From: a virus
Virus record (IMG/VR): IMGVR_UViG_3300005537_000055
Location: 1-27,680 of that record
Length of the DNA: 27,680 nucleotides
Reading direction: 5' to 3' (one strand)
In this document: in pieces, positions 2,823 to 27,680 of the stretch
Numbering within the stretch: the stretch's first letter is position 1
Layout: every line of letters begins with the position of its first letter
Notes under the pieces: generated by a model
Seen by the model: the letters and a program-made list of their open reading frames with translations, nothing else
Database searches by the model: none
What the model was told of the DNA's origin: nothing
Program-made: the position numbers and the translations under genes

Positions 2823-3252
2823 TCCCAGCTCTTAAGTGCTTCGGGGTGAGAGAGAGCCAGCGGCAGCTATGGCGGCACATGCTCAGAACAACCATTGCGC
2901 CAGATGGGAAAACATCCGGGATTATGGCTACTTCCTTAAACCCTAATTTCAAGTCAAAATCAAGTGCATGTTTATTCGCCGCCTCGACTTTGCCAAATAA
3001 AGTCGTGACACCCAGCTGTATAAAAGGGTAGTGAAACGTCACCCAAAGCATATCTTTATTGATCCAACGCTTATCAAAAGCGTGGACATGAATGCAAATG
3101 CTAGAACCGGTGTAATCCGTGAACAGCACACCCCCCAGGATCTCCTTGTCCCGCACCCTGGCAATGGTCGCCATGCCATCGAACCAAGGGATGTCTGCGC
3201 ACGTAGCGAGCAGCCGCCCTATGCGCTCGTTGTTGATGACAATGTCATGCAC
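2767..3252 (-). CDS. GNAT-like N-acetyltransferase family protein
   Basis: This 161-residue protein starts with GTG and overlaps the preceding 58-residue gene by eight bases. The segment IQLGVTTLFGKVEAANKHAL followed by DFDLKLGFKEVAIIPDVFPSG resembles the C-terminal half of phage GNAT-fold proteins, where the 'NxxALxFxxKLGF' helix packs against the acetyl-CoA site. I see no clear Q/RxxGxG/A acetyl-CoA loop, so catalytic activity is unproven. The protein normally ends near CRWL (about residue 132). The last 25-30 residues (Gly/Ala-rich) run into the HNH gene and may have been acquired when that gene inserted. Its DNA is AT-richer than its neighbours. Confidence 0.6.
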   Translation of the reverse strand: MHDIVINNERIGRLLATCADIPWFDGMATIARVRDKEILGGVLFTDYTGSSICIHVHAFDKRWINKDMLWVTFHYPFIQLGVTTLFGKVEAANKHALDFDLKLGFKEVAIIPDVFPSGAMVVLSMCRHSCRWLSLTPKHLRAGNGVYRGTEAGAGALPGAE

Positions 3253-17222: not shown

Positions 17223-19375
17223 GCTGAGTTTCCTATGTTGCTGGGAGTCGGCGCGATTGCTCGACTCTGATCCTGTTGGTCCTGTCCGAGTTGGTTCGCG
17301 GCAGGGGCTGGCATGTTGCTCGGGTGAGCAAGAGGTGGCGCACCTGGCGGGGCGCCAGCCGCCGGCGAACCGGGCGGGCCTTGTTGAAGCGCAGACTGGG
17401 CACGCTGGGCTGCGTTCAATTCGTCGTCGGACGGGATGATGCCATCGCCGTCGATGCCGATGGTGTGGGCGACGGTGCGCAACACTTCGGCGCGCCCCTT
17501 GATGCCCATGATCTGTGTGTCAATCGGGTTCGCCGTGAGCTGCAGGAACTCGAGCTGACGCTGGCGGTTCGTCTCGCGCTGCATGGCGACGTCGACGCCG
17601 CGGACTTTGATCTCCTCGTCGCCACGGAAAAGGCCTGAGGTGTCGGTGAGCAACACCATATCGTAGAGGCCTTCGAGGACGGGCTGCATCACGTCGCGGT
17701 CAATGTTCGCGGCGACGGTTTGAAGCAGCTTGCCGGCGTTGCCCATGAGCATGGCCAAGCCGGATGCCGTGCGGCCGGCGCCGCCCATGCGGTCCGAGCC
17801 TGTCACGTAGCGGGGGATGGCGGATAGTTCATCGGCCATCTGCGTCCACTTCTCGTAGGCGACGAGGAGTTCCTGGGTATTCGCGTTCGGCTGGAAGAAC
17901 TCGACTGGCTTTTGCGACCCCGTGTTGTTGGCGGCAACAGGGTCATTACGCGTATACCAGCGCTTCCACGGGTAGAGATTCTGAGAGTCCTGCGACGGAT
18001 CCATGCGGTCTTCGTTGATGACCACCTGCGGGCCGCTCGCGATCGACAAGTTATTGATTAGGGCACGCAAAGTTGCGTTCGCGGCCTCTTGGATGTCCTC
18101 CAAAATGTCCGGCAGGGCGTTGCCCACGATGGTGCCCGGCACCTTCTCGAAGCTCGTGATGAAGTAGGGGTGCCGCTTGCGAGGCGAAGGCGACATCTGC
18201 GCCTTGATGACGTGCCGCCCGATCAGCCACGCCTGTATGAAGTAGTCCCGCAGTGGATCATCAATGAGATCGGGGTCCATGCCGTATTGCAGGAGCATCG
18301 TGCCCTGCACGGATCCGTGAAACTCCAAGCAGTCGATTAGGTTCGACTGATTGAGGTTCGGATTTTCCTTGTTCTCGTTGAGCGCCCGCTCGGAGTCGGT
18401 CGGGTCGAGCCAATCATAGAGGCCACCCTGGCCATAGTCCTGTAGGACCGAGCGCACGGCGTCGGTGTTGTAATCCGGCAGGTCCATGACGTCGTTGAGA
18501 TCGCCGCGCGACATCTTGGTGCGCTCGATGACGTCGGCGTCCTCGATGTTGCTGACCCCAGGCGTCCAATAGATGTCGAATGGCGACACGCGCATCCAGA
18601 ACATCTTCGGTTTGGTGACTTGTTGCGCTTTGGCGTTCACCCACTGGACCGACTTCGTCATGCGGACGACGGGGCCCTTGATCACCCCGAACGGGTAAAG
18701 CGGGATGTCGCTGATGAACTCAGCGAGCGCGTGCGTGTAGAACCCGCCCTCGATCAGAAGCGTGTCGAGGCGATCCTCGGCTTTCTGAGCTTCGTGGCGG
18801 GCCTTCTTCTTCGCGGCGTCGCGCGCCGCGTCCATGAGCGTCTCAATGCGGTCGCGGATGTCGGTGAGCTGGACCTGGCCGCCTTGTGCCAGCGACCCCT
18901 GCACCTCCTGCTCGACAAGCTGTTGCACGGCAGAGGTGACGTTGTCCGGCAGCTCGGGATCCGGAGTGGGGTCGAGGCCCCAGGGCTTCTCGGGCCCGAG
19001 GTAGACCTCCCGAAGTAGCGACGTCGCACCGCGGCACTTCGCAGCAATGACACGCGAGTAGATCTCGGAACCGCCGAACTGCCTGATGTCATAGAGCTGG
19101 GTCTGGTCGTATTCGCCCTTGAACGCCCGCTGCGCCTTGAGCAGCCGGTGGTTCCAGCCGGCCGTGGTCGAGCGGTGACGCCGCATGATGTCGAACTGCG
19201 TGCGGATATGGCCGGCGAGCCCGCCCTCGAGCGCGTCGTTGTTACCTGCGTCGGTAAGTTTCACGCGCGCGAGATCAGCCGCCTGCTCTTTCGCAGCCAG
19301 CTCGTCGGGCGACATAGCTTGGATCATCCCGCCGCCCCCGCGGGACGATAAATTGGTGGGCAGGGCCTGGACCAT
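17219..19375 (-). CDS. portal protein
   Basis: The 718-residue product is close to the length of the P22 portal. Features include LLKAQRAFKGEYDQTQLYD near residue 83, MFWMRVSPFDIYWTPGVSN near 260, and SFEKVPGTIVGNALPDILEDIQEAANATLRALINN, the conserved wing/stem region. AIPRYVTGSDRMGGAGRTASG and a Gln/Pro/Ala-rich tail follow. It forms the dodecameric ring through which DNA is packaged and exits, and diverges from the terminase genes. The ATG at 19375 has only a close AAGGG. A second in-frame ATG at 19327 would suit the promoter spacing better. The dispersed palindrome at 19242-19257 encodes LTDAGN. Confidence 0.85.
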   Translation of the reverse strand: MVQALPTNLSSRGGGGMIQAMSPDELAAKEQAADLARVKLTDAGNNDALEGGLAGHIRTQFDIMRRHRSTTAGWNHRLLKAQRAFKGEYDQTQLYDIRQFGGSEIYSRVIAAKCRGATSLLREVYLGPEKPWGLDPTPDPELPDNVTSAVQQLVEQEVQGSLAQGGQVQLTDIRDRIETLMDAARDAAKKKARHEAQKAEDRLDTLLIEGGFYTHALAEFISDIPLYPFGVIKGPVVRMTKSVQWVNAKAQQVTKPKMFWMRVSPFDIYWTPGVSNIEDADVIERTKMSRGDLNDVMDLPDYNTDAVRSVLQDYGQGGLYDWLDPTDSERALNENKENPNLNQSNLIDCLEFHGSVQGTMLLQYGMDPDLIDDPLRDYFIQAWLIGRHVIKAQMSPSPRKRHPYFITSFEKVPGTIVGNALPDILEDIQEAANATLRALINNLSIASGPQVVINEDRMDPSQDSQNLYPWKRWYTRNDPVAANNTGSQKPVEFFQPNANTQELLVAYEKWTQMADELSAIPRYVTGSDRMGGAGRTASGLAMLMGNAGKLLQTVAANIDRDVMQPVLEGLYDMVLLTDTSGLFRGDEEIKVRGVDVAMQRETNRQRQLEFLQLTANPIDTQIMGIKGRAEVLRTVAHTIGIDGDGIIPSDDELNAAQRAQSALQQGPPGSPAAGAPPGAPPLAHPSNMPAPAANQLGQDQQDQSRAIAPTPSNIGNSA
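19242..19257. repeat. dispersed palindrome TTACC-N6-GGTAA, copy 8
   Basis: Spacer TGCGTC; within the N-terminal part of the portal gene, encoding LTDAGN. Confidence 0.85.
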
Positions 19376-19437: not shown

Positions 19438-19908
19438 TTGGAAGTATCGGTTTTACCACTGGATGAGTATAGTATTCATACGCTCACCAGTATTGCACGT
19501 GAAATTGCTTTAGACATAAACCCACTAGAAACTATACTCAAAACCCACCAAATCCCTACCCAAACCTTCCGTCGAATTTCGAAAACGGCGGCCTTTCAAA
19601 AAATTTTGTCGGAACAGGTCGAGGCCTGGAACTCGAGCCTCAACATCTCCGAGCGGCTGCGCATCAAGCAAGCCGCAATGGTGGAGGCATCGCTCGAGCA
19701 TCTGTTCGAGCGGCTAATCGACAAGAAGGAATCCCTGGCCGGCGCGGTCGAGCTTTTCAAAGCCCTGTCGCGCAACGGCGGGATCGGCGTGGCCGCGGGC
19801 GAGAGCACCGGCGAGCGCGTCAAGATCACCATCAACATGGGCGCCGACGCGCAGCTGCAGTTCAAGAAGGACGCGGCACCGAAAATGATCGAAGGCGAGG
19901 TGCTGTGA
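19438..19908 (+). CDS. terminase small subunit
   Basis: The 156-residue product has a basic helical N-terminal part with a possible helix-turn-helix (residues 15-55, including PTQTFRRISKTAAFQKI), which would recognise the packaging site. A helical centre with ISERLRIKQAAMVEASLEHL and the C-terminal GERVKITINMGADAQLQF stretch are both typical of phage small terminases. The start is TTG at 19438 with GGGG six bases upstream. No in-frame ATG occurs before residue 81. The first 150 bases are clearly more AT-rich than the rest, a possible sign of a mosaic N-terminal domain. The stop overlaps the next start as GTGA. Confidence 0.8.
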   Translation: MEVSVLPLDEYSIHTLTSIAREIALDINPLETILKTHQIPTQTFRRISKTAAFQKILSEQVEAWNSSLNISERLRIKQAAMVEASLEHLFERLIDKKESLAGAVELFKALSRNGGIGVAAGESTGERVKITINMGADAQLQFKKDAAPKMIEGEVL

Positions 19909-21347
19909 CCACCATTGACTATGAGGCGTCGCCCACCGTCGCCGCCTTCATGAAGTCAGACGCGTCGTTCCGCCTGATCGCCGGCCCGGTCGGATCCGGC
20001 AAGACGATCGGGTGCATGATGGAGTTCCTGCGGCGCGCCTGCGAGCAGGATCCAGACGACGACGGTATACGGCGCACGCGCTTCGCCATTGTCCGGCAGA
20101 CACTTCAACAGCTCAAGATGACTGTCCTCAAGGACATCATGGGGTGGTTCCGTGGCATCGCCGAATACAAGGTCAGCGAGTCGACCGTGTATTTCTCGTT
20201 CGGCGATGTGCGCTCAGAATGGCTCCTGATCCCGCTCGAGGATCCGGAAGACCAGAAGCGCCTGCTGAGCTCACAGCTCACGGGCGCCTGGATGTCGGAG
20301 TGCATCGAGATCGACATCGGCCTGATCGGGCCCCTGAGGGGCCGCTGCGGCCGTTATCCGAAGGCGCCAAGCTGGGTCGGCGTTATCGCCGATACCAACA
20401 TGCCCACGGATGGGTCAGACTGGCACCGGCTAATGGCTCTTGAGAAACCAGCCGGCTGGGACGTCTTCACCCAGCCAGGAGGCTTGGAGCCTGACGCCGA
20501 AAATCTCAACTGGCTGATGCAGACGCAGGACACCCTGCGCCTTCCGATCGGCCATCCTGACCGCGTGGCGCGCGGGCGGCTCTACTATACGCAGCTGCTC
20601 GATGGGACCACAGATGACTACCAGCGGCGTTATGTTCACGCGAAATATGGGAACGACCCCAGTGGCGCGGCCGTCTTCAAGGCCACGTTCTCGATGCAGC
20701 GTCATGTGGGGCATGACCTCCAACCTGTGCCGGGATACCCTTTAATAGTGGCCCAGGATTTCGGCCGCAATCCCTGCGCGCTGATCACGCAGCCAAATCA
20801 CCGCGGCCAGCTGCTGGTGCTTAAGGAGATCGTCAGCGAGGGTATGGGGCTCGAGAAGCACATCAACGAGCATCTTCGGCCGGCACTGATGGAAGAGATG
20901 TTCCTCGGCCGGCAGTTCTACATCGTCGGGGATCCGGCGGGCACCGCTCAGAACTCGAGCTATGAGGAGACGAGCTTCACGCTGTTCGAGCGCGCCGGCA
21001 TGAATGCGTTCCCGGCGCCGACCAACCAAATCGACAAGCGGCTGAGGGCCGTCGAAGCATTCCTGCTCGGGGTGCGCGGCGATGGCGCGGCGCTAGTTGT
21101 CGACGCCGATAACTGCCCGAAGCTCGTGCGGGCGATGAATGGCATGTATCGATTCAAGAAAATGAAGTCAGGCCAGATGGCGCCGCTTCCCGAGAAGCTA
21201 CACCCGTGGTCGGACCTCGCCGACGCGCTGCAATACGCGTGCCTTACGGCCCACAATGGCTACTCGCAGTATATTGCGAACCGGCTGCATCGGCATAGGA
21301 TGAAGGCGCCGCCGAAGCCCGTATTCTCGGCGCGCGCCTGGACGTGA
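19905..21347 (+). CDS. terminase large subunit (ATPase-nuclease)
   Basis: The 480-residue product has a Walker A motif GPVGSGKT at 27-34, an acidic Walker B-like stretch LTGAWMSECIEI (about 125-136), and an RNase H-like nuclease domain with Asp285 (VAQDFGRNPCAL), Asp343 (YIVGDPAGTAQ) and Asp437/Asp440 (HPWSDLADALQYA). It drives ATP-dependent packaging into the prohead and cuts concatemers. It starts with GTG overlapping the small subunit stop. A palindrome follows before the convergent gene. Confidence 0.92.
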   Translation: MTTIDYEASPTVAAFMKSDASFRLIAGPVGSGKTIGCMMEFLRRACEQDPDDDGIRRTRFAIVRQTLQQLKMTVLKDIMGWFRGIAEYKVSESTVYFSFGDVRSEWLLIPLEDPEDQKRLLSSQLTGAWMSECIEIDIGLIGPLRGRCGRYPKAPSWVGVIADTNMPTDGSDWHRLMALEKPAGWDVFTQPGGLEPDAENLNWLMQTQDTLRLPIGHPDRVARGRLYYTQLLDGTTDDYQRRYVHAKYGNDPSGAAVFKATFSMQRHVGHDLQPVPGYPLIVAQDFGRNPCALITQPNHRGQLLVLKEIVSEGMGLEKHINEHLRPALMEEMFLGRQFYIVGDPAGTAQNSSYEETSFTLFERAGMNAFPAPTNQIDKRLRAVEAFLLGVRGDGAALVVDADNCPKLVRAMNGMYRFKKMKSGQMAPLPEKLHPWSDLADALQYACLTAHNGYSQYIANRLHRHRMKAPPKPVFSARAWT

Positions 21348-26600: not shown

Positions 26601-26713
26601 TAGGGGTTTTGTGAGTAGTTTTACTATGGTATTTAAGTAGGCTCGGGTTTTTGGGTCCTATATATTTTTCAAACACCTAAAGAGCGCCGACCCCCCCTCC
26701 CCCCGTTGGGCGC

Positions 26714-26729
26714 TTACCCGGTGGGGTAG
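26714..26729. repeat. near copy of the dispersed palindrome (GGTAG right half)
   Basis: TTACC-CGGTGG-GGTAG differs from the consensus in one base. It starts at the last base of the C-loop hairpin in the structured region. Confidence 0.6.
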
Positions 26730-27096
26730 CCGGCCTCTATTCACTCAGCTCCTAGGGTGTCGGAACCGCCCTATAGCCCGCCCTCCGACCGAAGCGCCGA
26801 AAAGGTCTGGCTTCTAGTCGGTCTAGGGTGTTCGAAGTCTCCATCCCGAAGTGCCGCGCGCCACAGGCTTCATGCCTAGCCTACCACGCACCCGAAGGAT
26901 ACCGGGAGCTTGGGAAAGCTGGGGAGCGAAGCCGGTCCGAGCCCTCCCGCGAAAGCGCCCGGCTCGCAATGGCTCCCTGGGACTGAGTTCCAGGCGATAC
27001 CCGCTCCTAAAGCGATAGGGCCTATCGAGGCCCGAAAGGCAAGGGAGGGGCAAGGATGAAAGCCCTCGCGTGTGAGAGACGCGGGGCACCAATATT

Positions 27097-27122
27097 GCTC
27101 GGAGCCGCACTAGGCTCCGAGC
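27097..27122 (+). terminator. 10-bp hairpin at the end of the structured region
   Basis: GCTCGGAGCC (27097-27106) and GGCTCCGAGC (27113-27122) are perfect complements around GCACTA, followed by GTTTGTCAATTT. The T tract is interrupted, so termination would be moderate. Confidence 0.6.
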
Positions 27123-27132
27123 GTTTGTCAAT

Positions 27133-27148
27133 TTACCGAGCGGGGTAA
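27133..27148. repeat. dispersed palindrome TTACC-N6-GGTAA, copy 11
   Basis: Spacer GAGCGG; intergenic, between the terminator-like stem and the possible 70-residue ORF. Confidence 0.9.
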
Positions 27149-27152
27149 GACC

Positions 27153-27365
27153 ATGCGCTTCAATGCACTCACGCGCGCTGACATTTCGATCACTTCGTTT
27201 GTTGCTAGGCCGCAAGCGCCAAAGCTTGCAATCGAGCATATCCATGCGTTTCGGGTGTTCGAAGCTTCGAACGCTCCGGTTCGGACTTACTGTGAGGCCG
27301 GCAGGCCTGTGAAGGCCATGAAATACTGGGACCGCGACTTTCGGAGCGGCAAGGGGGGTTGGTAG
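27153..27365 (+). CDS. possible small basic protein, 70 aa
   Basis: ATG at 27153 opens 70 codons (MRFNALTRADISITSFVARP ... MKYWDRDFRSGKGGW). Composition is reasonable and basic, but the ribosome binding site is only GGGG ten bases away. An overlapping long frame exists on the other strand. A 16-bp palindrome GTTCGAAGCTTCGAAC (27257-27272) lies inside. A dispersed palindrome copy is five bases before the start, so if the gene is real the site could act as its operator. Confidence 0.4.
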   Translation: MRFNALTRADISITSFVARPQAPKLAIEHIHAFRVFEASNAPVRTYCEAGRPVKAMKYWDRDFRSGKGGW

Positions 27366-27370
27366 GTTCG

Positions 27371-27680
27371 GCAGTTGATAGACTGCCAACCTGTTACGGC
27401 AGTTCGCGAACAGGCGTAACAGGCTCTCTATCTATATATATTATAATTATAAACTAAGATTTCAATATATATACTATATGAAGCGAACGTTACGTCACCA
27501 TGTTCGCGTAACATCTGCTACAGCCTACCGCGCACGTAACGTGTTACGCGAACAGCCTAGGTATATTTGTCGTTCATTTGGCTCTTTATAATTAGTAATA
27601 AGCTAAGTGCCTATAAACACACAACAATTTTTGTGATATTATAAGAAAAGACCCCTTGAAATACCCTGTTACGCATGTTA
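27371..27680. other. repeat-rich, AT-rich region, candidate replication origin or operator array
   Basis: GTTACG or CGTAAC occurs seven times: 27393, 27416, 27489, 27507, 27535, 27543 and 27668. CCTGTTACG (27391-27399) and CGTAACAGG (27416-27424) are perfect complements around the palindrome GTTCGCGAAC (27403-27412). TGTTCGCGTAACA (27501-27513) is the exact reverse complement of TGTTACGCGAACA (27542-27554). Between them 27425-27480 is almost pure A/T, and A/T-rich DNA resumes at 27560-27660. Iteron-like repeats beside an AT-rich block are the usual features of a replication origin; an operator array for a divergent early promoter is the main alternative. No gene is seen here. Confidence 0.5.

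Follow-up and report, generated by a model that had tools for sequence, protein, structure and literature searches.

The hairpin array at 26660-27150 of the window (the whole 27,680-base stretch of viral DNA analysed here) is very probably a member of an undescribed family of structured RNAs, ~450-700 bases in length, found in a group of podovirus-like phages; no transcript has been observed. Judged from sequence, the claim rests on comparison and not on the folding of the window itself: profile homology across the 5' domain, a fixed position downstream of terL and on its strand, the lack of any Rfam match and compensatory base pairs in relatives together point to a new structured-RNA family. 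The original prediction, of a possible new phage non-coding RNA, thus gains the support of dozens of homologous contigs and of compensatory changes in two pairs of relatives. The family claim is independent of the antitermination mechanism discussed below.

Anatomy and setting of the hairpin array

The 27,680-base source record encodes a podovirus-type gene set that includes an internal virion protein, endolysin, major head protein, portal-type protein, large terminase and exonuclease. Most of these genes run leftward up to ~26300, and the hairpin stretch opens the rightward side. It is rich in GC, contains no gene and has many hairpins, its 3' end being an exact 10-bp stem. The GC content of ~0.63-0.64 inside the array drops to 0.38-0.46 in parts of both flanks, which bears out the GC-rich island between AT-richer flanks described originally; the C-run hairpin with its T-broken loop, the GAAA-capped stem and the final stem could likewise all be read in the sequence (Table 1). 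The RNA is placed as starting ~15 bases 5' of the array as first delimited and as extending nearly to the first early ORF at 27153, and may therefore form the leader of an mRNA instead of standing alone.

Table 1 Features of the window and of related loci (positions refer to the window unless a locus is named)
Feature	Position	Strand	Basis or remark
Large terminase	19905-21347	+	
Promoter-like block GGGTTTTTGGGTCC-TATATATTTTT	26640-26669	+	-10-like TATATT at 26661-26666; block conserved in family alignment
Conserved 5' domain: start block, C-run hairpin, small UACCC hairpin, CCTAGGGTGT motif	26670-26763	+	Leave-one-out profile match
C-run hairpin AGCGCC ... CCCCCCCTCCCCCC ... GGCGCT; loop of two C runs split by T	26683-26714	+	Sequence read directly
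Small hairpin UUACCC-GGUG-GGGUAG	26714-26729	+	Akin to the scattered palindrome of these phages
Motif CCTAGGGTGTCGG (family form CCTAKGNTGTARG)	26751-26763	+	Family comparison
Fast-evolving region with several hairpins, including GAAA-capped stems	26764-27096	+	MFE fold; equivalent region covaries in L048/L068 and L096/L105
GAAA-capped stem	near 26948-26957		Sequence read directly
10-bp 3' hairpin, arms GCTCGGAGCC/GGCTCCGAGC	27097-27106/27113-27122	+	Sequence read directly
boxA-like tail GCGTTTGTCAATTTACC after last hairpin	27121-27138	+	Degenerate; function inferred
TTACCGAGCGGGGTAAG hairpin (TTACC/GGTAA) over likely ribosome-binding site of first early ORF	27133-27149	+	
First early ORF, 70 aa	27153-27365	+	Predicted pI 10.3; no family match
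TTACC-N5/6-GGTAA copies	1109, 3620, 5227, 7192, 8374, 10377, 13620, 15503, 19242, 21622, 25266, 27133		
Conserved early protein, ~245 aa	L012 18372-19100; L016 3060-3800; L017 3977-4708; also L021, L022, L014	- in L016	
Micro-ORF RRxGGIWFIKIGRxNxSFSxSR	L012 18202-18309; L017 3802; L019 3767; L021 ~1250; L022 ~3140		

The last stem, described as terminator-like, is exact over 10 bp but is followed by GTTTGTCAATTTA, is not called by a terminator scan and fails the canonical criterion for an intrinsic terminator (a GC-rich stem, then an immediate T run). The block ahead of the RNA is promoter-like and conserved in the family, but a strict sigma-70 scan of the window called no promoter, and the promoter function of 26640-26669 is therefore only inferred. 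The array had also been said to resemble no RNase P, tmRNA, group I/II intron or riboswitch; in agreement with this, the window gave no match in a search with the Rfam covariance models, those for rRNA, RNase P, introns and riboswitches included, and no tRNA or tmRNA in a search with ARAGORN.

Folding of 26675-27130 gave z=-2.75 on the + strand, with 0/100 shuffles as stable, and z=-1.15 on the - strand, while 26769-27150 alone gave z=-2.45 (+) and -2.33 (-). One coding control in the same phage reached z=-2.81. Because coding controls overlap the z-scores in this way, we judged these values too weak, and the stability of the window sequence on its own is not decisive.

Homologues and compensatory changes in related phages

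The blocks shared by the family were first spotted by eye, by setting the gap at 17521-18202 of the phage isolate RHph_TM3_14A, which precedes its rightward genes, against the matching gap in locus L005. The terminase of RHph_TM3_14A is 48% identical to that of the window, its layout is the same and its RNA lies at 17.6 kb; three other phages are identical to it over the RNA. Loci were gathered by a pattern scan, a scan with the downstream early protein and a scan with the terminase alignment, followed by a profile of the 5' domain (the first ~180 bases), which was repeated in leave-one-out form because the first profile included the window. The leave-one-out profile matches the window at 26607-26787 (+) with E=6.9e-17 and the 12 other members tested at E=1e-12 to 1e-27, against a best E of 2.6 for reversed sequences. 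These are single-locus E-values, and the promoter block contributes to the scores.

Of 80 related phage loci, 42 have the module downstream of terL and on its strand, as do 13/16 of those with at least 6 kb of sequence downstream of terL. The number of independent members is lower than these counts, since there are near-duplicates among them (L062/L064, L081/L083 and L102/L104, for example). Two Bradyrhizobium assemblies (L021, L022) also carry the module, and a viral pattern scan added one new member (L115). Four other pattern-scan matches (L118, L119, L123, L124) were rejected as AT-rich and unrelated, and no convincing copy was seen in L008, L006, L035 or L061. Searches by DNA and by the first ORF found no close relatives of the window, and relatives of its exonuclease were too distant to help. 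An Rfam search had been proposed as a check, and neither the window nor 15 related loci gave a match; nor did we find a description of this RNA in the open-licence literature.

Read 5' to 3', family members comprise the promoter-like block (TTGTCA-N17-CATATT/TATATT in L019 and L020), a start block with the consensus AAGGTACCTAAAAAAG, C and G runs, CTGTCCA, a UUACC/GGUAA hairpin and the CCTAGGGTGTAGG motif. A fast-evolving region of several hundred bases follows, with a GC-rich hairpin in many members. The first early gene comes next, as a rule ~450-700 bases after the RNA begins; downstream ORF calls in the members are automatic and some are doubtful. Most members have the C runs and a 3' side like CTGTCCA. 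The flanking arms do not pair in every member, and a shared stem around the C run, which fits many members, was not retained as a family feature. In 13 of 30 members, compared with 0.7% of shuffles, the 160 bases preceding the first early gene contain a perfect stem of 8 bp or more. In L064 the CCCCCCCGATACTAGGGTGTG block occurs twice in one RNA (~3095-3115 and ~3150-3170). A segment of 16S rRNA, CCCTAGGGTTGTAAAGCTCTTT (L112, ~1880-1900), resembles the CCTAGGGTGTAGG motif, which may be chance.

Across 19 members, the window included, the mean folding z was -2.99 sense and -2.31 antisense, compared with -0.41 for eight coding controls. Alignment of the whole family is meaningful only in the 5' domain; the later stems cannot be aligned, and covariation was for this reason tested in close pairs alone. 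The consensus fold of L048/L068 (73% identity) contains 22 compensatory pairs and none broken (controls: mean 6.9, max 14), and that of L096/L105 (82% identity) 20 compensatory and 10 broken (controls: mean 5.8, max 10), the compensatory count of neither pair being reached by any of 60 controls. The consensus-fold energies of the two pairs have z-scores of -5.5 and -8.2 in the sense orientation and -2.7 and -6.2 in antisense, where there is a signal too since the complement of a paired sequence can also pair; covariation thus favours the sense strand, not exclusively. Covariation, a further check proposed at the outset, is hence seen in two pairs of relatives only: the window's own stems have no close relatives for comparison and its lineage lies outside these data. 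A conserved protein frame, named beforehand as grounds for refutation, was not found: on neither strand do the open reading runs of the members exceed those of shuffles in length, and no reading frame is conserved, in keeping with the earlier remark that the region has no convincing gene.

Palindromes and other neighbouring features

The interrupted palindrome TTACC-N5/6-GGTAA is dispersed through these phages, with 12 copies in the window, 30 in 45 kb of L012 and 18 in 19 kb of L005; shuffles give at most 0.2 per sequence. Seven of the 12 window copies lie inside genes, and some copies are near gene starts. They are possibly operator or stoperator sites, or RNA hairpins. A second palindrome, GTTAC-N6-GTAAC, often occupies the -35 place upstream of the -10-like block (as in L068 and L079, among many members) and is present in degenerate form near 26615-26635 of the window; its placement suggests a regulator related to the dispersed palindromes.

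Downstream of the RNA lies a conserved early protein of ~245 aa with no convincing match in Pfam or PHROG, and a conserved micro-ORF is found near the RNA (Table 1). A candidate origin lies at 27400-27680 of the window, where the DNA is AT-rich and the words GTTACG/CGCGAAC recur. In the 45-kb piece of RHph_TM3_14A the cumulative GC skew has its minimum at ~17 kb, beside the RNA.

Possible functions of the RNA

As to mechanism, the RNA probably affects the transcript that it heads, and we infer that antitermination is the best account, with a trans-acting structured RNA as its main rival. Window ~26670-27150 (+) would then be the 5' leader RNA of the rightward early operon and a cis-acting antitermination leader, a tentative identification, made without RNA data, that is quite possible but may well prove wrong. 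It is favoured by the enrichment of boxA with an upstream hairpin, by the order of these elements and by the small basic protein of the first gene. An exact boxA (GCTCTTTGACA, GCTGTTTGACA or GCTCTTTAACA) of the rrn type occurs in five of 41 members (L005, L012, L047, L064, L080) and in no shuffles, and a boxA within one mismatch, exact copies included, in 9/41 (shuffles, 0.13); most boxA-bearing members have a stable hairpin directly upstream. The host form of boxA is GCTGTTTGACA, and the rRNA leader of a Bradyrhizobium assembly carrying such a phage reads GGGCTGTTTGACAAGTGAAG, close to the boxA of the family; no host boxA turned up when sought at a set distance from 16S. The first downstream ORF in many members encodes 64-110 aa with a pI of ~10-12 and an N-terminus like NRNMQAKxxKAKxQ.

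How such a leader might work can be outlined. Host RNA polymerase would transcribe it from the promoter-like block and the RNA would fold while emerging; it would then recruit Nus factors much as nut sites and rrn leaders do, with NusB-S10 at boxA and the adjoining hairpin. The small basic protein encoded directly downstream would possibly act like lambda N, and the polymerase would then read through terminators in the long early operon.

In rrn leaders boxB precedes boxA, and lambda nut uses boxA and boxB together with N (PMC10250234). The hairpin-then-boxA order of most boxA-bearing members matches the former, not clearly so in the window; the family RNA, however, leads into phage early genes rather than rRNA, and a boxA within one mismatch is confined to the minority given above. 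With lambda nut/N the family shares an early promoter (here inferred), a leader that in some members has boxA with a hairpin close by, and in many a small basic first-gene protein, whose basic N-terminus recalls the arginine-rich start of N without any link in the libraries. It differs in that its leader is structured throughout its 450-700 bases, most members, like the window, have a degenerate boxA or none, and its small basic proteins show no detectable homology to N; ten first-gene proteins searched against Pfam and PHROG matched no antiterminator family. In phage HK022 the early leader RNA put influences RNA polymerase in cis, as is proposed for the family, but put is a short two-hairpin element.

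Against antitermination stands the finding that a clear boxA is missing from about three quarters of members, among them the window. The best 11-base match in the window has three mismatches and its boxA-like tail requires a gap (a similar hairpin-plus-tail arrangement is seen in L101, L102, L044 and L046, and as GTTGTTTGACAATTTACC in L111), and its first ORF lacks the shared N-terminus. Since a nut site needs fewer than 100 bases, antitermination alone also leaves 450-700 structured bases unexplained. That length, the extensive covarying structure, the 3' hairpin of many members and the fast divergence outside the 5' domain would all suit a free-standing RNA, made early, ended or processed at 27097-27122 and acting in trans on host or phage as an RNA or RNA-protein particle. 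The models here are GOLLD and ROOL, large structured phage RNAs of unknown function that often lie near tRNA islands (PMC12286853). The family RNA instead heads an early operon and matches neither these nor any other Rfam model at the gathering score, in many members it adjoins the ribosome-binding site of the first early gene, and the window has no good terminator, so we regard this reading as unlikely. Scarcely better placed is the broader idea that large structured early RNAs of phages form a new class and work as RNA or RNA-protein machines, for example as a scaffold that, along with the neighbouring small basic protein, would capture Nus factors of the host or proteins related to the ribosome; it too we think unlikely, if only a little less so.

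A long 5' untranslated region governing the stability or translation of early mRNA without antitermination, by 5' hairpin protection or a masked ribosome-binding site, would account for the G/C-rich hairpin that many members have close to the 5' end and for the TTACC/GGTAA hairpin over the start region (27133-27149), but it leaves the host-type boxA with its upstream hairpin unexplained and seems distinctly improbable. Still harder to sustain is an RNA that primes or regulates replication at 27400-27680: AT-rich, repeat-bearing DNA does lie immediately downstream and the skew minimum of RHph_TM3_14A adjoins the RNA, but transcription diverges at the same place, which alone can produce such a skew, and no origin has been shown. 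Least credible is a feature of the DNA or of coding, whether dispersed operators, in line with the genome-wide palindromes, or the 188-aa frame that is open antisense at 26823-27389 (-). Neither the loci nor the libraries contain a homologue of this frame, which is probably a chance product of GC-rich DNA; the unremarkable open runs of the members and the sense bias of the covariation also speak against such a feature.

Whichever function applies, the family is absent from Rfam and sits at a fixed, presumably important place in a phage group that is known from many metagenomes and from Rhizobium and Bradyrhizobium, with almost no cultured members. The existing isolates, RHph_TM3_14A and the three others, make its transcription, ends, structure and function directly testable. 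If the RNA is an antitermination leader, the mechanism would extend beyond the lambdoid phages, with far more structure than a nut site.
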